DNA of 47,532 bases from Deltaproteobacteria bacterium (GTDB taxonomy: Bacteria; Desulfobacterota; Desulfomonilia; UBA1062): contig JAKLDU010000002.1 of NCBI GenBank assembly GCA_022703355.1, positions 1 through 47,532 of the forward strand, in the 5' to 3' direction. Below are positions 24,172 to 34,092 of this stretch, piece after piece (positions within the stretch are counted from its first letter, which is position 1; the number at the start of each line of letters is the position of its first letter). Both the position numbers and the translations under genes were made by a program. The notes beneath the pieces are model-generated. The model worked only from the letters and a program-made list of their open reading frames with translations. It was not told where the DNA came from and made no database searches.

Positions 24172-25428
24172 TTATTTCCACTCCCGCTCGTCCCGGAGGG
24201 GTTTCGCGTCCGGGGCTAAGCTCCCGGGCAGGGCGAACTCGACCTCGTCCACCCTCACCGTGCAGGTCTCCTGGAAGACCTTTTCGAAGCGGGCCTTCAG
24301 GCCCTTCAGGTCCTTCTCCCCGCCCCGGGGGTCGAGCCGTGCCAGAAGGAAGTCCCGGTGGCCTTTGCGGGTCACCACAAGCTCGACGGCCAGGCCCGGG
24401 AAGCTCTCGGCAACGCGCCTGACCTGGCTGGGGGCCACGAACATGCCCCTGACCTTCACGGCGTCGCCCACCCGGCCCGCGATCCCCGAGAGGCGCCGCG
24501 AGGTCCTGCCGCAGGGGCAGGGCGCTTCGACCAGGCTCGAGAGGTCGCCGGTGCCGAAGCGCAGGAGGAAGAAGACGGGGTTCAGCCGGGTCACCACCAC
24601 CTCGCCCAGCTCCCCCGCCGCCACAGGCGCGCCCGTGGCGGGATCCACGATCTCCACGATCACCTCCTCGCAGAGGTGCCAGCCCTGTTTTTCCGAGCAC
24701 TCGTAGGCCACGTCGCCCACCTCGGTGGCGCCGTACATCTGGTAGGTGTCGATGAGGAACTCGGTCTCGAAGCGCTGCCTCAGGCTCGGCTGGAGCGGCT
24801 CGGCCACGAAGCTCGCGCGCCTCAGCGAGAAGTCCCGGGCGAAGTCGAAGCCCAGCTCGCCCGCCTTCTCGATGATGGCCATGAGGAAGCTCGGGGTGCC
24901 GGTGTAGCCCGTGACGTGCAGGTCCCTGATGAGCTGCACCTGGAGCTGCGCGGAAGACGCCCCCGAGGGCACCACGGTGGCGCCCACCCTGGTGAGCCCG
25001 CCGTGGAAGGTGAGCCCGGCGGCCACCATGTGGTAGGAGAAGGCGTTGAGCACCACGTCGCCCGGGCCGAAGCCCGCGGCCTTGTAGCCCCTGGCCCACA
25101 GCGGGTCGCTCGAGCCCAGGTGCGGCTCGTACACCGGGCCGGGCGAGGTGAAGATGCGCTCCACCGGTGCGCCCGGGTCCTCGAGCCCGCCGTACGGGGG
25201 CTGCTGCGCCTGGAGCGCCACGACCCGCTCGCGGCTGATGACCGGGAGCTTCACGAGGTCGTCCACACCCTGCACGTCGGCCGGCGTGAGGCCCCGCTCA
25301 TCCAGGATCCTCTTCACCCGGGAGGACTTCTCGTACCCGAGTTCGACCATCCCGGCGATCTTCCGGTCCTGCTCCGCCCGCCGCTCTTCGCGGGACACCG
25401 TCTCGAGCCTGTCGAAATAGCCGCCCAT
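24172..25428 (-). CDS. Phenylacetate-CoA ligase-family adenylate-forming enzyme (PaaK-like)
   Basis: A 418-residue ANL-superfamily protein of the short PaaK type. Seen: VDDLVKLPVISRERV near 60, a degenerate P-loop-like FTSPGPVYEPH (about 92-102) where most members read SSGTTGxP, GYTGTPSFLMAIIEKAGELGFDF, the adenylate-binding YGATEVGDVAYEC, and the C-terminal VRGMFVAPSQVRRV. It activates a carboxylate to a CoA thioester via an acyl-AMP. The altered P-loop is typical of a PaaK-like subgroup found in liv-type operons. Last gene of the minus-strand operon, 15 nt after livF. Aromatic acids are the textbook substrates of the family; here the substrate is not shown by sequence. Confidence 0.82.
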   Translation of the reverse strand: MGGYFDRLETVSREERRAEQDRKIAGMVELGYEKSSRVKRILDERGLTPADVQGVDDLVKLPVISRERVVALQAQQPPYGGLEDPGAPVERIFTSPGPVYEPHLGSSDPLWARGYKAAGFGPGDVVLNAFSYHMVAAGLTFHGGLTRVGATVVPSGASSAQLQVQLIRDLHVTGYTGTPSFLMAIIEKAGELGFDFARDFSLRRASFVAEPLQPSLRQRFETEFLIDTYQMYGATEVGDVAYECSEKQGWHLCEEVIVEIVDPATGAPVAAGELGEVVVTRLNPVFFLLRFGTGDLSSLVEAPCPCGRTSRRLSGIAGRVGDAVKVRGMFVAPSQVRRVAESFPGLAVELVVTRKGHRDFLLARLDPRGGEKDLKGLKARFEKVFQETCTVRVDEVEFALPGSLAPDAKPLRDEREWK

Positions 25429-25443: not shown

Positions 25444-26265
25444 CTACAGCCAGCGCTTCCGGCGCTTGTAGGATTTCACGTCGCGGTAGGAGCGGGCGGT
25501 GCCGCCTGCGCCCACGCCCAGGTAGAACTCTTTCACATCCGGGTTCTCCGTGAGGTCTTTGGCCTCGCCCTCCATGACCACGCGGCCGTTCTCCATGACG
25601 TAGCCGTAGTGGGCAATCTTAAGGGCCATGTTGGCGTTCTGCTCCACGAGCACGATGGTGGTGTGCTGCTCCTCGTTGATGAGCCTGATGATGCGGAAGA
25701 TCTCCTTCACCACCAGCGGTGCCAGGCCCAGCGACGGCTCGTCCAGGAGGAGGAGCTTCGGGTGCGCCATGAGCGCCCTGCCCATGACCACCATCTGGAT
25801 CTCGCCCCCGCTGCAGTAGCCGGCCATGGTCTTCCTGCGCTTCGTCAGGGCCGGGAAGTAGTGGTACACCATCTCCAGGTCCTTTTTGTAGGGCTTCAAA
25901 GGCCTGGTGGCCGTACCCACCCGGAGGTTCTCCTCCACCGTGAGGTACTTGAAGGGCTGCCTGCCCTCGAGGACCTGGATGATGCCCTTGCGGGTGATCT
26001 CCTCCGGCGAGAGGTTCTGGATGCCCGCCCCGTCGTAGGTGATCTCGCCGTCGGTGACCTTGCCGTTCTCGGGCTTCAGGAGCCCTGAGATGGCCTTGAG
26101 CGTCGTGGTCTTGCCCGCGCCGTTGCTCCCCAGGAGCGACACGATTTGGCCCCGGGGCACCTTGAGCGACACGCCCTTCAGGACCTGGATCACGTCCGAG
26201 TAGACCACGCTGATGTTGTTGACCAGGAGCAGGGTGTCGTCTTTTTCGTTTTCCACGGCACCCAC
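25444..26265 (-). CDS. livF: Branched-chain amino-acid-type ABC transporter ATP-binding protein (LivF)
   Basis: A 273-residue ATPase. Walker A GSNGAGKT (46-53), signature YCSGGEIQMVVMGRALM, Walker B LLLLDEPSLGLAP, and switch His in the region IVLVEQNANMALKIAHYGYVMENG. LPRGQ-type spacing and GIIQVLEGRQPF identify the LivF branch. The signature is CSGGE rather than LSGGE, and a basic C-terminal tail (YKRRKRWL) extends the usual 235 residues. It pairs with LivG to energise uptake. The start overlaps nothing; livM ends 1 nt upstream. Confidence 0.95.
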   Translation of the reverse strand: MGAVENEKDDTLLLVNNISVVYSDVIQVLKGVSLKVPRGQIVSLLGSNGAGKTTTLKAISGLLKPENGKVTDGEITYDGAGIQNLSPEEITRKGIIQVLEGRQPFKYLTVEENLRVGTATRPLKPYKKDLEMVYHYFPALTKRRKTMAGYCSGGEIQMVVMGRALMAHPKLLLLDEPSLGLAPLVVKEIFRIIRLINEEQHTTIVLVEQNANMALKIAHYGYVMENGRVVMEGEAKDLTENPDVKEFYLGVGAGGTARSYRDVKSYKRRKRWL

Positions 26266-26266
26266 C

Positions 26267-27337
26267 TCAATACGAGAACGGCCAGAGCCGGAAGGACGAG
26301 CGGACTATCCGCCAGAGCTCGGCGAGCCCCTTGGGCTCGATGAGGATGAAGAGCACGATGGCCAGACCGAAGGCGAACTCTCTCAAGCTCGCCATGTTGA
26401 GGCCGTAGCCGCTTAAGCCGGGGAAGTTCATCAGCGCGTCCGTGGCGAAGCGCAGGCTCTCGTTCAGGCCCGTGATGAACACCGCGCCGAAGATGGAGCC
26501 CGGGATGCTCCCGAGGCCGCCGATGATGACCATGGCGAGGTACTCCACGGAGAGCCCGAGCGTGAAGGGCTCGGTGGAGATGCTCCGCATGTAGTACGCC
26601 CACAGGCCGCCGGCGAACCCCGCGTAGAAGGAGCTCACCGCGAAGGAAAGCAGCTTGTAGAAGAAGATGGGGATGCCCATGCCCTCGGCGGCCCGGTCGT
26701 TGTCCCGGATGGCGATGAAGGCCCTTCCGTAGCGCGTGCGCATGAGGTTCGAGGCCATGAGGGTGAGCGCCGTGAGGCTTGCGAAGATGACGAAGAAGAA
26801 GCGCAGGTCGGTGTTGATCTCGAGCCCGAACAGGCTCGCCCCGGGCAGCATGATCCCCATGGTGCCCTTGGTCACCGCCTCCCAGTGCACGAGGAGGTAC
26901 TCGATGATGAACTGGCCCGCCAGCGTGGCGATGGTGAGGTAGAGCCCCTTGAGCCTGCCCGAGGGGATGCCGAAGACCATGCCCGTCAGCGCGGCGACTA
27001 TCCCCGCCCCGGGCACGGCGACGAGGAAGGGCAGCCCGCAGGTGGTGGCGAGCACCGCGCCCGCGTAGGCGCCCACGCCGAAGAAGGCCCCGTGGCCCAG
27101 CGAGATCTGGCCCGTGAACCCCACGAGGATGTTCAGGCCCAGCGCCGCGATGGCCGCGATGCCCGTGGTGTTGACGACGTAGAGGAGGTAGGGAGGGGAG
27201 ACGAAGGGCACCACGCAGAAGAGCGCGGCGATGCCCACGAAAGCCCAGAGCCGGCCGAAGTCGGTCTCGAAGAGGGCCAGCTCACGGGCGTAGACCTCCT
27301 TGTAGTTGCCGCAGGGGTGGAAGCGGGGCGCTCTCAT
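26267..27337 (-). CDS. livM: Branched-chain amino-acid-type ABC transporter permease (LivM)
   Basis: A 356-residue inner-membrane permease with about nine hydrophobic segments. Family blocks: GLNILVGFTGQISLGHGAFFGVGAYAGA (residues about 85-115), TRYGRAFIAIRDNDRAAEGMGI and AMVIIGGLGSIPGSIFGAVFI. It forms the translocation path with LivH. It sits 4 nt after livH and 1 nt before livF in the operon. Confidence 0.96.
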   Translation of the reverse strand: MRAPRFHPCGNYKEVYARELALFETDFGRLWAFVGIAALFCVVPFVSPPYLLYVVNTTGIAAIAALGLNILVGFTGQISLGHGAFFGVGAYAGAVLATTCGLPFLVAVPGAGIVAALTGMVFGIPSGRLKGLYLTIATLAGQFIIEYLLVHWEAVTKGTMGIMLPGASLFGLEINTDLRFFFVIFASLTALTLMASNLMRTRYGRAFIAIRDNDRAAEGMGIPIFFYKLLSFAVSSFYAGFAGGLWAYYMRSISTEPFTLGLSVEYLAMVIIGGLGSIPGSIFGAVFITGLNESLRFATDALMNFPGLSGYGLNMASLREFAFGLAIVLFILIEPKGLAELWRIVRSSFRLWPFSY

Positions 27338-27341
27338 GTCC

Positions 27342-28220
27342 TCACACCCGCTCGATTTCCACCAGGCCGAAGAGGCCGTAGGGCTTGACGAGGAGGATCG
27401 CCACGAGCACGATGTAGGGGATCACGTCGCGCAGCGACGGCGAGAGGTAGCCGCTCGTGAAGGTCTCGAGCAGGCCGATGATGATGCCGCCGATGATGGC
27501 GCCGCCGATGGAGTCGAGCCCGCCCAGGATCACCACCGGGAAGACCTTGAGCCCGATAGAGGAGATCTCGTGCACGTTGATGCCGTTGATGACCCCCAGC
27601 ACGATGCCGCTCATGGAGGCCACCAGCGCCGCGATGGCCCAGGACAGGGCGAAGACCTTCTTCACGTGCACGCCCAGCGACAGGGCCGCGGTCTGGTTGT
27701 CCGCCACCGAGCGCATGAAGATGCCCTGGGGCGAGTACTTGAAGAAGAGGCCGAACAGGACGAGGAAGGTGACGCCCATGAGGGACGAGGCCACGTACAC
27801 CGGGGCGATGGTGATGCCGCCGAACTGCATGCCCAGGGAGGCGGGCAGGAAGTCCGGGTAGGTCTGGAGGTTGCCGCCGAAGAAGAAGAGGAGCAGGCCC
27901 TTGAACATGGAGGAGAGCCCCACCGTGAGCATGATGACGAAGATGAGCGGCTCGCCGATGAGGGGCCGCAGGAAGATGCGCTCCACCGTGAAGCCGAGCA
28001 CGAAGGAGCCCGCCAGCGTGACGAGGAAGGCGAGCGCCACCGGGAGCTGGAGCCAGGACACGAGCACGAGGAAAAAGAAGGCGCCGATGGCCAGGAGCTG
28101 CCCGTGGGCGAAGTTCAGCACCGAGGACGACTTGAAGATCATGACGAAGCCCAGGGCGGAGAGCCCGTAGAGAAGCCCCACGCTCAGTCCGTTGATGAGC
28201 AGCTGCAGAAAGAATTCCAT
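27342..28220 (-). CDS. livH: Branched-chain amino-acid-type ABC transporter permease (LivH)
   Basis: A 292-residue permease. The N-terminus FLQLLINGLSVGLLYGLSALGFVMIFKSSSVLNFAHGQLLAIGAF and the C-terminal VFPVVILGGLDSIGGAIIGGIIIGLLE are standard LivH blocks; about eight hydrophobic helices are visible. It follows the CoA ligase gene after 13 nt and precedes livM by 4 nt, so it belongs to the same transcript. Confidence 0.96.
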   Translation of the reverse strand: MEFFLQLLINGLSVGLLYGLSALGFVMIFKSSSVLNFAHGQLLAIGAFFFLVLVSWLQLPVALAFLVTLAGSFVLGFTVERIFLRPLIGEPLIFVIMLTVGLSSMFKGLLLFFFGGNLQTYPDFLPASLGMQFGGITIAPVYVASSLMGVTFLVLFGLFFKYSPQGIFMRSVADNQTAALSLGVHVKKVFALSWAIAALVASMSGIVLGVINGINVHEISSIGLKVFPVVILGGLDSIGGAIIGGIIIGLLETFTSGYLSPSLRDVIPYIVLVAILLVKPYGLFGLVEIERV

Positions 28221-28233
28221 GGTATTCGTGCTC

Positions 28234-30183
28234 CTATTCCACCGTGATGACCCGGGCGACGGTCTCGATGACCCCCTCCCGGCCGTCCCGGTACTTGACC
28301 TTGCCCTTGACCGGGACCTCTTTTTTGTCCGAGTACATGGCCTCGATGAGGGGGAGGTAGAGGCCGTAGACGAAGCGCCGGCGCACCTTGCCCGTGCGCG
28401 TGAGCTCCTCGTCGTCCGCGTCGAGGAGCTTGTAGAGGAGGATGAACCTCCTGATCTTCATGGGTTTCGGGAGCTGGGCGTTGACCTTCCTCACCTCTTC
28501 GAGGATGAGCCCTTCCATCTCCGGGCGCTGGGAGAGGTCGGTGTAGGTGGTGTAGGGGATCATGCGCGCTTCCGCCCAGTTGCCCGCGTTGCCCTGGTCG
28601 ATGTTGATGAAGGCGGTGATGTAGGGCCGCGCCTCGCCGAAGGTCACCGCCTCCTTGATGTAGAGCGAGAACTTGAGCCTGGTCTCGATGAAGTCCGGGG
28701 AGAAGGCGTTGCCCTCCTTGTCCCGGATGATGTCCTGCTTGCGGCCGATGATCACGAGGTGGCCGTCGGCGTCGAGGTAGCCCGCGTCGCCCGTGAGGAA
28801 CCAGCCCTCCTCGAAGGCGTCTTCGGTGGACTGATAGTCGTTGTAGTAGCCCGAGAACACCGACTTCGACCTCACCATGACCTCCTGGTCCGGGGAGATC
28901 CTCACCTCGGTGCCGGGCAGGGGCGTGCCCACGGTTTCTGGCTTGGCCTCGCCGTCGGGCTGGACCTGGAAGATGCCGCAGGTCTCGGTCATGCCGTAGC
29001 ACTGCTTGAGGTTCAACCCGCAGGCGCGGAAGAAGCGGATCACGTCAGGCGAGATGGGGTGGCCGCCGGTGTAGGCGCTCACGAACTGCGAGCAGCCCAC
29101 CCGGTCGAGGAGCGGGTTGAACACGAGCGCCCGGGCCAGGCCGTGGAGAACCTTCAGGGCCGGGCCCGCGGGCCGCTTCTTCTCCTCGCCTTCCACCACT
29201 CTGCCGCCGATCCTTTCGGCGAGTGCGAACAGGGCGCGGTTGACGAACCCCGCGTCGTTCATCCTGACCCGGATGCTCGAGGCCAAATCCTCCCAGAACC
29301 GCGACGACGAGATGAGCAGGTGCGGGCCGATCTCCCGGAAGTCCGAGGAGACGGTCTCGGGGGTCTCGGGGAAGTTCATGGTCATGCCGCCCATGAGCGC
29401 CACACCGAAGGCCCACATCTGGTCCACGATCCAGGCGGGGGGCGTCATCGACAGCCAGTTGGCGCCCACGCCCACCGGGGAGGACTCGATCCACTTCCTG
29501 CCCATGGCCGTGTAGTTGCGGTGGCTGAGCATGGCGAGCTTCGAGACGCCCGTGGTGCCCGAGGTCATGATCATGTGGGCGGCGTCGTCCTCCTTGGCCT
29601 TGCCCGCCTCCTCCTCGAAGAGGCCCGGGTTTTCCTGTTCGTGCCGCGCACCCAGGTCGAGGAGGTCTTTGAAGCTCACGAGGAGGGGGTCGTCGTAGCC
29701 CCGCATGCCCGTGGGGTCCACGTAGATTATGGCCTTGACGGTCTTGAGCACGTCGATCTTTTCCAGGAGCTTGTCCACCTGCTCCTGGTCCTGGACGACC
29801 ACGAAGCTTGCGCCTATGCGCGAAAGCGCCCCCGCGAGCTCGCCCGCCACGGCCGAGGTGAAGAGGTTCAGCGTCACCGCGCCGAAGGCCTGGGCGCCCA
29901 GCTGGGTGAAGAGCCACTCGGGGTGGTTGTTCAGGATCATGCCCACGTTGTCGTGCCTTTTGATGCCCAGGCTCCTGAGGCCCAGGCCCGCGTGCCTGAC
30001 GAAGCCCAGGTAGTCCCGCCAGGAGTAGGTCTTCCAGACCCCGTAGGCCTTTTCCCTGATGGCGGCGGCGCCGGGGCCGAGGAGCTCCGCCTGCCTGAGC
30101 AGGACCTGGGGCAGGGTGCAGGCCTCCAGTGCGTCGAGGTGCCCGGCCGTCATCCTGGTGATCTTCACGCCCCTGCCCGCCAT
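28234..30183 (-). CDS. AMP-dependent acyl-CoA synthetase (long-chain fatty-acid-CoA ligase type)
   Basis: A 649-residue adenylate-forming ligase. P-loop TSGTTGVSK (207-215), acceptor motif YGMTETCG, GWFLTGDAGYLDADGHLVIIGRKQDIIRDKEGNAFSPDFIE (hinge region) and a C-terminal domain of the FadD15/FAA type (RRRFVYGLYLPLIEAMYSDKKEV). It converts a carboxylic acid, ATP and CoA to acyl-CoA. The start is the ATG at 30183 with GGAGGG 6 nt upstream; the long upstream extension of this frame lies inside livG. Being nested between livG and livH, it probably activates the imported solute by metabolic trapping. Fatty acid, aryl acid and other carboxylates are all possible. Confidence 0.9.
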   Translation of the reverse strand: MAGRGVKITRMTAGHLDALEACTLPQVLLRQAELLGPGAAAIREKAYGVWKTYSWRDYLGFVRHAGLGLRSLGIKRHDNVGMILNNHPEWLFTQLGAQAFGAVTLNLFTSAVAGELAGALSRIGASFVVVQDQEQVDKLLEKIDVLKTVKAIIYVDPTGMRGYDDPLLVSFKDLLDLGARHEQENPGLFEEEAGKAKEDDAAHMIMTSGTTGVSKLAMLSHRNYTAMGRKWIESSPVGVGANWLSMTPPAWIVDQMWAFGVALMGGMTMNFPETPETVSSDFREIGPHLLISSSRFWEDLASSIRVRMNDAGFVNRALFALAERIGGRVVEGEEKKRPAGPALKVLHGLARALVFNPLLDRVGCSQFVSAYTGGHPISPDVIRFFRACGLNLKQCYGMTETCGIFQVQPDGEAKPETVGTPLPGTEVRISPDQEVMVRSKSVFSGYYNDYQSTEDAFEEGWFLTGDAGYLDADGHLVIIGRKQDIIRDKEGNAFSPDFIETRLKFSLYIKEAVTFGEARPYITAFINIDQGNAGNWAEARMIPYTTYTDLSQRPEMEGLILEEVRKVNAQLPKPMKIRRFILLYKLLDADDEELTRTGKVRRRFVYGLYLPLIEAMYSDKKEVPVKGKVKYRDGREGVIETVARVITVE

Positions 30184-30185
30184 GA

Positions 30186-31010
30186 TCAGCCCTCCGCGGC
30201 CTCTTCGCCCGACCCGGCCGGGCCGGGGTCGTCTCCCGCCGCGTCCCCGAGGTAGGCCCTGATGACCTCGGGGTGGTCCTGGATCTCCCCGGGCCTGCCC
30301 TCGGCGAGCTTCTCGCCGAAGTTGAGCACCACGATGCGCTCGGAGATGCTCATGACGATGGACATGTCGTGCTCCACGAGGATCATGGTCTGGCCCCAGC
30401 CGTCGTGGAGCTCCAGGAGGAAGCGCACCATGTCCTCCTTCTCCTCGAGGGTCATGCCCGCGAAGGGCTCGTCGAGCACGAGGAGGCTGGGCTCCGAGGC
30501 GAGCGCCCTGCCGAGCTCCACCCGCTTGCGCATGCCGTAGGGCAGGGCGCCCACGAGCTCCTTGCGCACGTGCTGGATCTCCAGGAAGTCGATGATCTCC
30601 TCGAGGATCTCGTGGTGCCTGACCTCCTCGTCCCGCACGGAGCGGGAGAAGAGGCACGCCAGCCCGAAGCTGTAGGAGGAGCGGGTGTGGCGGGCCAGCA
30701 GCATGTTCTGGAGCACGGTCATGCCCGGGAAGAGCTCGATGTTCTGGAAGGTCCGGCCGATGCCCAGGCCGGTGAGCCGGTGGGTGGGCAGGGAGGTGAT
30801 ATCGCGGCCGTTGAACGAGATGGTGCCGGAGGTGGCCTTGTAGAAGCCCGTGATGCAGTTGAGCAGGCTCGTCTTGCCCGCGCCGTTGGGCCCGATGACG
30901 GAGACGAGCTCCCCCGTGGAGACGTTCAGGCTCACGTCCCTGACGGCGTGGATCCCCCCGAAGGACAGGGACAGGCCGGTGACCCGAAGCTCGGCCTTGC
31001 GCTCCCCCAT
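30186..31010 (-). CDS. livG: Branched-chain amino-acid-type ABC transporter ATP-binding protein (LivG)
   Basis: A 274-residue ATPase from the ATG at 31010 (MGERKAELRVTGLSLSFGGIHAV). Walker A GPNGAGKT (40-47), signature region LPYGMRKRVELGRAL, Walker B LLVLDEPFAGMTLEE, and VEHDMSIVMSISERIVVLNFG. The FNGRDITSLPTHRLTGLGIGRTFQNIELFPGMTV segment identifies LivG. The signature is YGMRKRVE rather than LSGGQ, as is common in this branch. The extra N-terminal frame to 31190 reads through REP-like repeats and is not credible. It is separated from livJ by 258 nt that hold only those repeats. Confidence 0.95.
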   Translation of the reverse strand: MGERKAELRVTGLSLSFGGIHAVRDVSLNVSTGELVSVIGPNGAGKTSLLNCITGFYKATSGTISFNGRDITSLPTHRLTGLGIGRTFQNIELFPGMTVLQNMLLARHTRSSYSFGLACLFSRSVRDEEVRHHEILEEIIDFLEIQHVRKELVGALPYGMRKRVELGRALASEPSLLVLDEPFAGMTLEEKEDMVRFLLELHDGWGQTMILVEHDMSIVMSISERIVVLNFGEKLAEGRPGEIQDHPEVIRAYLGDAAGDDPGPAGSGEEAAEG

Positions 31011-31081
31011 CTTCCCGGCGGAGAATATCCGCGGCTGTCCCCTGAACGCCCTCACCCGGCGCCCCCTTTGCCGCTTTCCGC

Positions 31082-31171
31082 CACGCCCGCGGAGGCGGGG
31101 GCAGGTGCGGCCGCACCGCCGCAATTGGTGATGCCCCCCTTCCCTTTTACCGTCACGCCCGCGGAGGCGTG
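31082..31171. repeat. Two REP-like palindromic units between livJ and livG
   Basis: CACGCCCGCGGAGGCG occurs at 31082-31097 and 31154-31169. The second copy extends to CACGCC-CGCGGA-GGCGTG, a perfect 6-bp stem; the first has a 4-bp stem. Their form resembles the dispersed TCATTCCCGCGAAAGCGGGAA-type repeats of deltaproteobacteria. They occupy the largest gap inside the operon and could attenuate or stabilise the mRNA there. Confidence 0.6.
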
Positions 31172-31268
31172 GACCCGGGGGGCCGGGCACATACCCCGGA
31201 ACCCCCTCTTCGCGAAGGTGGCGGGGCGGGTGATGGACTGTGGCGCCTGGTGCACGGCTGCTTCTCCC

Positions 31269-32483
31269 TTACTTGACCTTCAGCAGCTTGATCCTGTCCC
31301 TGCCGGGGGTGAAGAAGTTGGTGAGCGGGGTGAAGGTCCCGTTCTCGTGGACCTGGACGATCCTGCCCTTGAACGACGCCCCGTGGTCGGTCTTCGAGTA
31401 GGTGACGTTGGGCACCAGCCCGCCGAAGTCCTCGTTCCTGAAGGTCTCGAGGGCCTTGTTGACGTTTTCCGGGGTGATGGTCCCGAACTTTTCCTGCGCC
31501 CGGATGAAGGCCCTTTCCATGATCATGCCCACCACCACGCCTTCCCAGTACGAGGTGTCGAAGGCGTTGACGGTCTTGTAGCGCTTCCACACGGACTCCA
31601 TGAGCTTGACGCCCGGGGTGCCGTCCGAGGGCAGGCCGCCGCAGAACTGCATCTTCACGCGGTCCTTGATGAGGCCCTTGCCGTTCTTGAAGAAGTCCGG
31701 GTCGGTGGAGGTCCAGGTGCCGATGAACTGGGGGTCGTAGCCGATGCGGTCGGCGCTTTTCAGCGTGGAGATGAGCGCCGCAGGGAGCACCTGGACGAAC
31801 ACGTACCGGGCGCCCTTCTGCTTGAGGCGCAGCAGCTCGGTGGTGAGGTCGACCGTCTGGGGGGGGAACTCCTCGATGGACACGATCTCGATGCCGTTGG
31901 CCTTCGCGTACTCCCTGCTCGGTTCGTGGATGGAGCGCCCGTAGGGGTTGTTGTAGGTGAGCAGGCCGACCTTGGGGGCGCCGGGGCCCTTGTGCACGGC
32001 CTTGATGTACTCGAGCACGGCCTGGCAGTCGAGCCGGTAGTTGCCGAAGGGCAGGTACAGGTAGTCCACCGGGGCCTGGAGGATCTCCCAGGCCGTCGAG
32101 TAGTTGATGGCCGGGATCCTGAACTGCTGGAGGAGCGGCTTGGCCTGGATGCCCTCGCCCGCGCTCCAGGTGGCGATCATGTCGACGCGCTCCTGCATGG
32201 CGAACTTGCGGACGGCCGCCACCGCCTCGGGCGCCTTGTAGGCGGTGTCCACGGTGAGCATCTGGATCTTTCTGCCCTTGACGCCGCCCTTGACCTCGTT
32301 GACGTACCTGAAGTAGTCCTGCTGGCCCTTGGCGTGGTACTTGCCGAAGGTGGAGGCCGGGCCGGTGAGGTTGATGGCCGCCCCCACCTTGATGTCCTTC
32401 GCGGCAGCAGCCGAGGGCAGGGCCCCCAGGGAAAGAACCGCGGCGAGTGCCCCGATGGTCAGTACCCCGATGATCTTCTTCAT
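31269..32483 (-). CDS. livJ: Periplasmic solute-binding protein of the liv-type ABC transporter
   Basis: A 404-residue secreted binding protein. The signal peptide (MKKIIGVLTIGALAAVLSLG, likely cleavage after SAAAA) is followed by KDIKVGAAINLTGPASTFGKYHAKGQQDYFRYVNE, the usual start of a type I leucine-binding fold. Later blocks are GPGAPKVGLLTYNNPYGRS and AFDTSYWEGVVVGMIMERA. It captures the solute for LivHMGF. Homologues in deltaproteobacteria bind amino acids, aromatic or aliphatic carboxylates, so specificity is open. Ribosome site AAGGGGGA is 8 nt before the ATG. It is the first structural gene after the Phe-leader attenuator. Confidence 0.93.
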   Translation of the reverse strand: MKKIIGVLTIGALAAVLSLGALPSAAAAKDIKVGAAINLTGPASTFGKYHAKGQQDYFRYVNEVKGGVKGRKIQMLTVDTAYKAPEAVAAVRKFAMQERVDMIATWSAGEGIQAKPLLQQFRIPAINYSTAWEILQAPVDYLYLPFGNYRLDCQAVLEYIKAVHKGPGAPKVGLLTYNNPYGRSIHEPSREYAKANGIEIVSIEEFPPQTVDLTTELLRLKQKGARYVFVQVLPAALISTLKSADRIGYDPQFIGTWTSTDPDFFKNGKGLIKDRVKMQFCGGLPSDGTPGVKLMESVWKRYKTVNAFDTSYWEGVVVGMIMERAFIRAQEKFGTITPENVNKALETFRNEDFGGLVPNVTYSKTDHGASFKGRIVQVHENGTFTPLTNFFTPGRDRIKLLKVK

Positions 32484-32551: not shown

Positions 32552-32599
32552 AAAAAAAGCCGCAGGTAGACGAAACCCGGTCCACCTACGGCTTTTTTT
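32552..32599 (-). terminator. Intrinsic terminator in the livJ leader
   Basis: On the minus strand an A7-GCCG... arm (32599-32580) pairs with the ...CGGC-T7 arm (32571-32552): a 20-bp stem with two G-T wobbles, an 8-nt loop and a terminal run of seven T. It lies 68 nt before the livJ start codon, inside the leader rather than after a gene. Confidence 0.85.
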
Positions 32600-32642
32600 C
32601 TCCTCTTTTTCGATCAGATCTTAAAAGCGCTCGCAGGCAGAC

Positions 32643-32702
32643 CTAGTCAAAAAAGAAGAACCCGAACATTGTAGTTGTGATGTGTACTGGTGCCATAGAC
32701 AT
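32643..32702 (-). CDS. Phe-rich leader peptide of the liv-operon attenuator
   Basis: A 19-residue frame, MSMAPVHITTTMFGFFFFD, ending in TAG. Five of its last seven codons are Phe (TTC, then after a Gly codon TTC TTC TTT TTT). No ribosome site precedes the first ATG; the promoter would start transcription at or within a base or two of it, so translation may be leaderless. The second or third ATG (codons 3 and 12) are alternatives and keep the Phe run. The function is regulatory rather than as a protein. Confidence 0.7.
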   Translation of the reverse strand: MSMAPVHITTTMFGFFFFD

Positions 32703-32707
32703 GAAGC

Positions 32708-32735
32708 TTTAAAGGGAAAGGCCATCACAAGTCAA
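32708..32735 (-). promoter_or_regulatory. Candidate promoter of the livJ leader
   Basis: TTGACT (32735-32730), a 16-nt spacer and TTTAAA (32713-32708) on the minus strand. The predicted start is close to 32701, giving a leader of about 220 nt before livJ. Confidence 0.55.
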
Positions 32736-32814: not shown

Positions 32815-32910
32815 AATCCGGGCGATCACGGGGGCGCTTCGGCTAAAGGTCCCGTGCAGTCACATGATGGAGACCCCATGAAATCCGGGCGATCACGGAG
32901 GCGCTTCGGC
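32815..32910. repeat. 29-bp direct repeat, 67 bp apart
   Basis: The 29-bp unit beginning AATCCGGGCGATCACGG occurs at 32815-32843 and 32882-32910 with one mismatch. The second copy ends 8 nt before the stop of the radical SAM gene. No open frame spans them. The rest of the 32484-32918 gap is the livJ leader described separately. Confidence 0.7.
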
Positions 32911-32918
32911 GGCCGCCC

Positions 32919-33812
32919 TCAGATCACCGAGGGGACGGACCGGTAGTGTGCGATGCGCCGGTCTTCCGGCAGGGCCAGGAAGGAGTCGATGACGTCCAGG
33001 AGGGCCTGCCTGTCGCGGTTGAGCAGGCCGTGGACGGGCAGGTAGTTGTTCGCGTGGTCGCAGGTGAAGGTGGTGCCCTCGGCGTCGAGCGCGGCGATGA
33101 GGGACCTGAGCTCGTGCACCGTTCCCTCGGGGGTCTGCTCCCGGAACTCGCCTGCGGCGATCTTCCCGGCGAGCTTCGACATGGGGTGGATGAAGAGCCT
33201 CCGCACCCGGATGAAGTGCGGCTTGACCTCGGTGAACACGGCCGCGGACTCCAGGGCGTGCTCCTCCCAGAGGTCCTGGCCGCCCAGGCCCAGGAGGAAG
33301 TAGTAGCTGAGCTCCAGGCCCGAGGCCATGGTCTTTTTTCCCGCCTCGACCAGCTGCTTGTGGCTGGTGCCCTTCATCTGGAGCTTGAGCACCCGGTTCG
33401 AACCGCTCTCGAGGCCGACGTGCACCCGGTCGAGCCCGGCCTCGCGGATGGCCAGGAGGTCGTCTTCGGTCTTCTTCGCGAGGCTCGAGGCCCTGGCGTA
33501 GGCCGTGACGCGCGTGAGCCGGGGGAACTTCTCCCGCAGGCGCTCGAGCACGTCCACGAGGAATTGAGCGGGCAGGTCGAGGGGGTTGGCGTCTCCAAGA
33601 AACGCGGTGGTGAAGATGTCGCCGTGCAGGGAGGCCAGCGCGTCGATGTCCATGAGGACCTCTTCCTTCGAGCGGGTGGAGTAGGGCGTGCCGAAGAGGT
33701 CGTAGATGCCGCAGAAGCTGCAGCGGTTCCAGTCGCACCCGCGCACGACCCTCACCAGCAGGCTCCTCGCCTCGCTCGGAGGCCTGATCACCAGATGTTC
33801 CGGAGTGTGCAT
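32919..33812 (-). CDS. Radical SAM protein (CxxxxCxxC-type, function unknown)
   Basis: A 297-residue radical SAM enzyme. Cluster motif GCDWNRCSFCGIY (C26, C31, C34; C-x4-C-x2-C, a known variant), SAM-binding FLGDANPLDLP, and VHVGLESGSNRVLKLQMKG. The C-terminal part is short, and no substrate-domain or auxiliary-cluster motif is visible. The start at 33812 is set by the onset of family-like sequence and by a promoter placing the transcript start at this ATG; the frame to 34091 upstream reads as non-coding. It is followed by a 435-nt gap, so it is not obviously part of the liv operon. Confidence 0.87.
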   Translation of the reverse strand: MHTPEHLVIRPPSEARSLLVRVVRGCDWNRCSFCGIYDLFGTPYSTRSKEEVLMDIDALASLHGDIFTTAFLGDANPLDLPAQFLVDVLERLREKFPRLTRVTAYARASSLAKKTEDDLLAIREAGLDRVHVGLESGSNRVLKLQMKGTSHKQLVEAGKKTMASGLELSYYFLLGLGGQDLWEEHALESAAVFTEVKPHFIRVRRLFIHPMSKLAGKIAAGEFREQTPEGTVHELRSLIAALDAEGTTFTCDHANNYLPVHGLLNRDRQALLDVIDSFLALPEDRRIAHYRSVPSVI

Positions 33813-33819
33813 AGCCTTG

Positions 33820-33848
33820 AATATAGGAGAAGCGGTCAACGAGGTCAA
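33820..33848 (-). promoter_or_regulatory. Strong promoter giving a leaderless radical SAM mRNA
   Basis: TTGACC (33848-33843), 17 nt, TATATT (33825-33820) on the minus strand. The -10 box ends 7 nt before the ATG at 33812, so the transcript should begin at or next to the start codon. Confidence 0.65.
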
Positions 33849-34047
33849 GGGAACATGCCGGGCCGCGCCGGACTGCCCCGGCGGCCGGGGGCCCCGGGGT
33901 TTGCCGCGGCGGGCGGTGCGACAACACTTCCGCATCGATCGGCAGCACGGAGCTCCGGAGTTTGTCCCTTGGCAGAGGGCTCTTTTTTCATGAGGCCGAC
34001 CTTCCCGGGATGCGTTCCGAAAAGTCCGGCCGACCCCTGTTTGCCCT
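33849..34047. other. Gene-free part of the gap between radical SAM gene and RND operon
   Basis: GC-rich, without a credible frame on either strand. A weak CCCT-N6-AGGG hairpin followed by CTCTTTTTT (near 33966-33989, plus strand) is the only structure noticed; no plus-strand gene precedes it. Confidence 0.3.
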
Positions 34048-34092
34048 TCACAGGGCCATGGAATGCAGTTATTATAATGAAATATATTCATG
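34048..34092 (+). promoter_or_regulatory. Candidate promoter and small dyad upstream of the RND operon
   Basis: TTCACA (34048-34053), 17 nt, TATTAT (34071-34076). The dyad ATGAA-N5-TTCAT (34078-34092) overlaps the likely start site and could be an operator for a local repressor. The operon's first ATG is at 34174. Confidence 0.4.

Follow-up and report, generated by a model that had tools for sequence, protein, structure and literature searches.

A short frame rich in Phe codons precedes an operon for a Liv-type transporter and two CoA ligases in a genome of the Desulfobacterota (Deltaproteobacteria bacterium, UBA1062; GCA_022703355.1), which raised the question of whether this frame is part of an attenuator and, if so, what the operon supplies to the cell. 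The window analyzed here is the whole stretch of 47,532 nucleotides at positions 1–47,532 of contig JAKLDU010000002.1, forward strand. For comparison, livJ orthologues were gathered from GTDB contigs as well as 60 relatives, and conservation was assessed on the 18 orthologues of the window's own family (f1) that retained the upstream region.

Promoter, leader peptide and alternative helices

A sigma70-like promoter, TTGACT-N16-TTTAAA, spans 32735–32708 on the minus strand. Alignment and positions place its −10-like hexamer TTTAAA (32708–32713) 16 nt after the −35 hexamer TTGACT (32730–32735), of which TTGAC is invariant in the 18 orthologous leaders. The preliminary description of this DNA had reported a minus-strand frame of 19 codons ending in FGFFFFD-stop, and we read it directly as MSMAPVHITTTMFGFFFFD-TAG at 32702–32643, with the refinement that the second ATG (32696) is the conserved start, giving 17 codons. 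The two ATGs lie 5 and 11 nt past the −10-like hexamer, with no visible Shine-Dalgarno sequence. Because the −10-to-ATG spacing is conserved and a Shine-Dalgarno sequence is missing, the leader 5′ UTR is probably 0–6 nt, and the leader RNA is predicted to be leaderless or nearly so.

A run of four Phe control codons (TTC TTC TTT TTT) occupies 32649–32660 on the minus strand, and a fifth Phe codon lies at 32664–32666. All 18 leaders contained four to five consecutive Phe codons, or FF-S-FFFF, in a run that varied synonymously only. In the last four of these codons, bases 1 and 2 were always T and the third base was T or C only (18/18), and the first half of the peptide was free to vary in the alignment. 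Simulation of 40 windows of the same dinucleotide content produced no short ATG frame (8–40 aa) containing FFFF, against two in the real window: the leader frame and another on the plus strand near 7.9 kb. The leader frame with its FFFF is not a product of chance.

Upstream of the promoter, a 26-bp sequence, GAAGCGCCYCCGTGATCGCCCGGATT, occurs twice on the minus strand (32815–32840 and 32882–32907), with no such repeat expected by chance. Both copies sit between the promoter and a gene for a radical SAM protein (32919–34091, minus strand), which seven checked loci of the family conserve, at 66–78% identity, immediately upstream of the attenuator.

Segment 2, GGTCTGCCTGCG (32632–32643, minus strand), the 5′ arm of an antiterminator, starts on the final base of the stop codon. 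Across a 41-nt linker it can form 12 continuous base pairs, three of them G-U, with segment 3, CGTAGGTGGACC (32579–32590, minus strand), which is also the 5′ arm of the terminator. Folding and alignment located the intrinsic terminator, 20 bp followed by T7, at 32552–32599 on the minus strand; a 43-nt piece of it folds at −26.1 kcal/mol (z −6.7), and its T run ends 68 nt before the livJ ATG. The preliminary description had recognized both structures, and direct reading of the 12-bp pairing, together with folding and positions for the terminator, agreed with it.

Folding of the leader without ribosomes revealed a further helix, P1, which was absent from the preliminary description. Its 5′ arm (32639–32660, minus strand) runs through the Phe codons, the stop codon and GGTCT, and pairs with a 3′ arm in the linker, AGATCTGATCGAAAAAGAGGAG (32600–32621, minus strand), in a duplex of −24.3 kcal/mol (z −5.5). 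In the alignment to the Rfam model RF01859 (Phe_leader), the 1:2 helix of the model falls on the bases of P1. P1 is the 1:2 hairpin of classical attenuators and completes a three-hairpin attenuator.

From how the element is built and conserved, from the mutual exclusion of its helices and from the way a ribosome footprint fits it, we infer how it would act in the cell, namely as a ribosome-mediated transcription attenuator sensing charged tRNA-Phe. In an untranslated leader, P1 would form early and mask part of segment 2, and the terminator would then form. Under Phe shortage, a ribosome that stalls within the Phe run would disrupt P1 and leave segment 2 free to form the antiterminator with segment 3, and the operon would be transcribed. 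When Phe is plentiful, a ribosome at the stop codon would cover segment 2, and segments 3 and 4 would terminate transcription. Our footprint model sets the edge of the ribosome 12 nt beyond the first base of the A site. With this geometry, no part of segment 2 is covered by a ribosome stalled at one of the first two or three Phe codons, and the antiterminator then folds at −22 to −32 kcal/mol; a stop codon in the A site leaves only 1 of the 12 nt of segment 2 free. Without a ribosome, either P1 or the antiterminator gives the lowest-energy fold of the RNA as far as segment 3, depending on the sequence; super-attenuation of untranslated leaders is therefore plausible, though not as a general rule.

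Conservation and comparison with described attenuators

The whole arrangement of leader, Phe run, stop-overlapping segment 2, antiterminator and terminator was present in 18/18 f1 orthologues, and TTGAC, the ATG, the stop codon, GGTCT-CCT and the terminator core were invariant or nearly so in the 18-leader alignment. The antiterminator was paired in 97.0% of cells and is so conserved that compensatory change was seen at one pair only (GC, GU, AU), comprising 4 cells, a number reached by 30 of 500 shuffles. In the terminator (97.2% paired), three pairs had changed on both sides, with 13 doubly changed cells, which none of 500 shuffles reached. P1 was found in 18/18 leaders, where its duplex beat shuffled linkers (z −2.5 to −6.5) and its 10-bp core was 94.8% paired vs. 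17–45% when slid; as a strong helix, it was limited to f1. A covariance model of the livJ element (R1) gave strong matches only before livJ, only in f1 and once per genome, in 18 of the 24 family genomes.

The preliminary description had itself proposed a test of its reading, namely whether relatives conserve the Phe run and the alternative stems, and the comparison, once run, found both retained. That an ordinary terminator lies behind a chance T-rich frame, with no regulation, is hardly credible: intrinsic terminators are common, but here three alternative helices, the Phe codons, the stop position and the promoter are conserved over 18 genomes. As judged from these sequence features, the element is almost certainly a real attenuator of the leader-peptide type.

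Rfam gave no match in the window at the gathering threshold. At a permissive threshold, RF01859 was the best of 4,227 families (E 0.003, all 125 positions), with a score of 28.9 bits vs. a gathering cut-off of 55, at which a formal assignment fails. The element resembles the enterobacterial pheA/pheST leader represented by RF01859 in its short Phe-run peptide, its Phe-codon 1:2 hairpin and its competing antiterminator and terminator, with the parts on the same strand and in the same order. It differs in belonging to another phylum, in standing before a transporter/CoA-ligase operon rather than pheA or pheST, in an ATG that follows the −10 by 5–11 nt without a Shine-Dalgarno sequence, and in a stop codon that overlaps segment 2. 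The preliminary description's reading of a ribosome-mediated attenuator of the pheA and pheST kind gains further support from P1, from the best Rfam match and from a Phe/Tyr version of the attenuator before livJ in a second family, f32.

Other described systems share single features. In Sinorhizobium meliloti, the trpL attenuator RNA begins at the trpL ATG (PMC7298713); the likeness is a leader peptide on a leaderless or near-leaderless RNA, predicted here from promoter spacing only, whereas the S. meliloti leader responds to Trp and lies on trpE(G). ABC-leaders also place a premature terminator and an antiterminator before ABC-transporter operons, but the excerpt of PMC2965389 that describes them gives their signals as T-boxes or unknown and mentions no Phe leader peptide. 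The literature searched, which covered few subscription journals, yielded no Phe attenuator for a transporter and none from Deltaproteobacteria. By its sequence, the element extends the Phe attenuator to a new type of operon, one that joins a transporter with CoA ligases.

Related attenuators in Desulfobacterota

Weak R1 matches elsewhere were mostly related attenuators with leaders rich in Phe, Tyr or Trp (F/Y/W) codons, and four of five such loci lay on genes for ADH synthase, shikimate kinase and DAHP synthase, as confirmed by NCBIfam. Matches on the opposite strand were discarded as the terminator's mirror, and the weak matches L077, L079 and L084, which had no aromatic leader, were taken as chance or antisense terminators. 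A second model (R2), trained on the related F/Y/W leaders, matched 77 of 395 Desulfobacterota genomes, a count that is not independent evidence because such leaders made up the training set. The R2 matches inspected precede aroK and genes for DAHP synthase, ADH synthase and chorismate synthase, and one with Trp codons precedes a TrpE-like gene (all genes named by reading the sequence).

In the second family, f32 (L153, L154, L155, L158), a Phe/Tyr attenuator precedes the livJ orthologues, with leader peptides such as GFFFFSF and AAFFFFYFFSF; L038 is similar. Some f32 members have a Shine-Dalgarno-like GAGGC or GAGGT before the ATG. Most inspected f32 and aro leaders form an antiterminator and a terminator, L155 being unmatched by the simple pattern used. 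The livJ element belongs to a set of F/Y/W attenuators that occurs across the phylum on aro genes and is apparently undescribed.

Individual F/Y/W leaders were seen in L078, L080, L081, L082, L083, L151, L156, L157, L160, L161 and L163, and further ones in L164, L166, L167, L169, L170 and L172. They share a TCTGCC-like segment 2 with the livJ element and mostly precede aroK or the genes for DAHP, ADH or chorismate synthase. Five F/Y/W-attenuator loci tested against Rfam matched no family at cut-off. In L159 (1450–1896), tandem attenuators, each followed by a terminator, precede a gene for an ADP-forming acyl-CoA synthetase; the first leader reads ...NFYYFYY..., and the second, MTLKDKHPETETYCYCYCYCKGPP, has alternating Tyr and Cys codons. 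Tyr-rich leaders (KYYFYY, LYYYYYY) with terminators also precede genes of the metallo-beta-lactamase fold in L080 (1422–1650) and L162 (1400–1650), which suggests a tyrosine link for these genes. A leader-like frame with Trp codons (NIWWC) and a terminator stand before a TrpE-like gene in L174, from the family member G009.

The operon and its possible role in Phe supply

Behind the leader, all on the minus strand, lie livJ for a HAAT-type solute-binding protein (31269–32483; PF13458; fold nearest to 3lkb, LivJ family), the ATPase gene livG (30186–31190 as the longest ORF; PF00005, PF12399), a gene for an AMP-forming acyl-CoA ligase (28234–30255 as the longest ORF; PF00501), the permease genes livH (27342–28220; PF02653) and livM (26267–27337; PF02653), the ATPase gene livF (25444–26265; PF00005, LivF-like) and, as the operon's last gene, that of a PaaK-like ligase of the phenylacetate-CoA ligase family (24172–25428). 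The real start of livG is probably near 30990 (orthologues cover 251–260 aa). NCBIfam PaaK models scored the last ligase below their cut-offs, and the solved structures nearest to it are phenylacetate-CoA ligases. The seven-gene order livJ-livG-ligase-livHMF-paaK follows the leader in every locus long enough, and paaK closes the operon in every such leader-bearing locus; it is absent from five of the six leaderless operons long enough, and L044 has a 45% homologue. LivJ identity among the 18 leader genomes goes down to about 69%, and the tree groups all LivJs from leader-bearing loci in a single clade (support 99/99), outside which the leaderless ones fall. In the AlphaFold model of LivJ (pLDDT 88.9), Foldseek neighbours hold valine, leucine, phenylpyruvate and p-coumarate; prediction of a ligand from the structure was dropped since the ligands of these neighbours include both amino acids and aryl acids.

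Orthologous liv/ligase operons with neither leader nor paaK beside livF were observed in L046, L040 and L041. Directly downstream of livF, leaderless operons have a gene for a protein of >1000 aa in L045 (17702–20701), L046 (16939–21203) and L040 (9379–12854), and the first 1000 aa of the L045 protein matched no Pfam family. In L046 (8267–9779), TetR/AcrR-like and EtfB-like genes, named by eye, lie upstream, as if the ancestral operon had been catabolic.

Since attenuation would turn the operon on when Phe is short, the operon should supply Phe, and a catabolic sense of the "Phe catabolite" that the preliminary description had listed among possible solutes becomes less likely. The solute would be Phe or an aryl precursor, and we infer that the data favour an aryl acid feeding Phe synthesis. 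The operon would import this acid, most simply phenylacetate, and the PaaK-like ligase, the other ligase or both would activate it to the CoA thioester. Phenylacetyl-CoA could then be reductively carboxylated to phenylpyruvate by an indolepyruvate-type oxidoreductase (IOR), and transamination of phenylpyruvate would yield Phe, supplementing or replacing prephenate dehydratase (PDT). A comparable route from aryl acids to aromatic amino acids, with IOR as the named enzyme, is given for Methanococcus maripaludis in PMC4162585, citing Porat et al. That organism, unlike the present one, is an archaeon. We know of no link of its route to a Liv transporter, an AMP-forming PaaK-type ligase or a Phe attenuator.

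The gene content of the genomes bears on this proposal. PDT was absent with chorismate synthase present in 9 of 23 genomes with a livJ orthologue vs. 0 of 33 others (Fisher p 1e-4), and in 5 of 19 vs. 0 of 33 (p 0.004) when only safer cases were kept, in which the absence is not likely to stem from a missing contig. These counts ignore phylogeny, include eight genomes reached through loci and without a completeness figure, and score PDT only, for which an unrelated enzyme such as cyclohexadienyl dehydratase could stand in. In the leader-bearing genome G014 (99% complete), the gene that in relatives encodes a chorismate mutase–PDT fusion is reduced to chorismate mutase alone (L142: 9690–9998), a domain-precise loss in an aro cluster that is otherwise intact (chorismate mutase, aminotransferase, TyrA, AroA). 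TyrA is missing too in G000, G002, G003 and G023, where loss of a contig can account for the absence of PDT, and the PDT of G018 is cut at a contig edge; with PDT and TyrA linked and the G018 gene running off its contig, PDT loss is weakened as a clean marker. PDT was still detected in eleven leader-bearing genomes, where the operon would be a supplement; it is therefore not simply a replacement for PDT. Several PDT-less genomes have leaderless operons, and PDT loss therefore tracks the operon, not the leader specifically. IOR alpha (TIGR03336) scored above cut-off in the genome of the window and in most relatives, with G003 and G023 as exceptions; being nearly universal in the phylum, it was rejected as a discriminating marker.

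With the same attenuator, the transporter might instead be a starvation-induced Phe importer whose neighbouring ligases serve something else. LivJ does belong to the branched-chain/aromatic amino acid binding family, its nearest solved structure has bound valine, and LIV-I of E. coli takes Phe too. However, every long leader-bearing locus has two CoA ligases within this operon, which argues against simple Phe import, and activating ligases make little sense if switched on under Phe scarcity; we regard this reading as unlikely. Less probable still is a catabolic operon, for aromatic or fatty acids, in which a real attenuator would use Phe-tRNA charging as a general starvation signal only. The divergent TetR/AcrR-like gene and the EtfB-like gene adjoining livJ in the leaderless L046 point that way, as do, in G048, a ligase and benzoyl-CoA/2-hydroxyacyl-CoA dehydratase-like genes downstream of a leaderless operon (all read by eye). 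Against it stand the Phe specificity of the f1 leader and the position of related attenuators of the phylum on aromatic amino acid biosynthesis genes. A Phe attenuator on an anabolic operon with aryl-acid salvage is the explanation that we favour and hold to be reasonably probable. Its fuller form is offered more tentatively, as a serious possibility: a Phe-attenuated operon scavenging phenylacetate or a similar acid through the CoA ester and IOR, letting some lineages drop PDT, and forming a branch of a phylum-wide F/Y/W regulon.

Sequence alone would label this operon "branched-chain amino acid transport" or "aromatic degradation". Leader-peptide attenuators tell which amino acid an operon serves, and the conserved Phe attenuator thus allows a physiological role to be assigned to the transporter and its ligases. 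The aromatic attenuation regulon of Desulfobacterota was missing from the papers searched and is without an Rfam model, and the livJ element adds an example of a leader peptide possibly translated from a leaderless RNA. For the uncultured anaerobes that carry it, the element points to a route of Phe supply.
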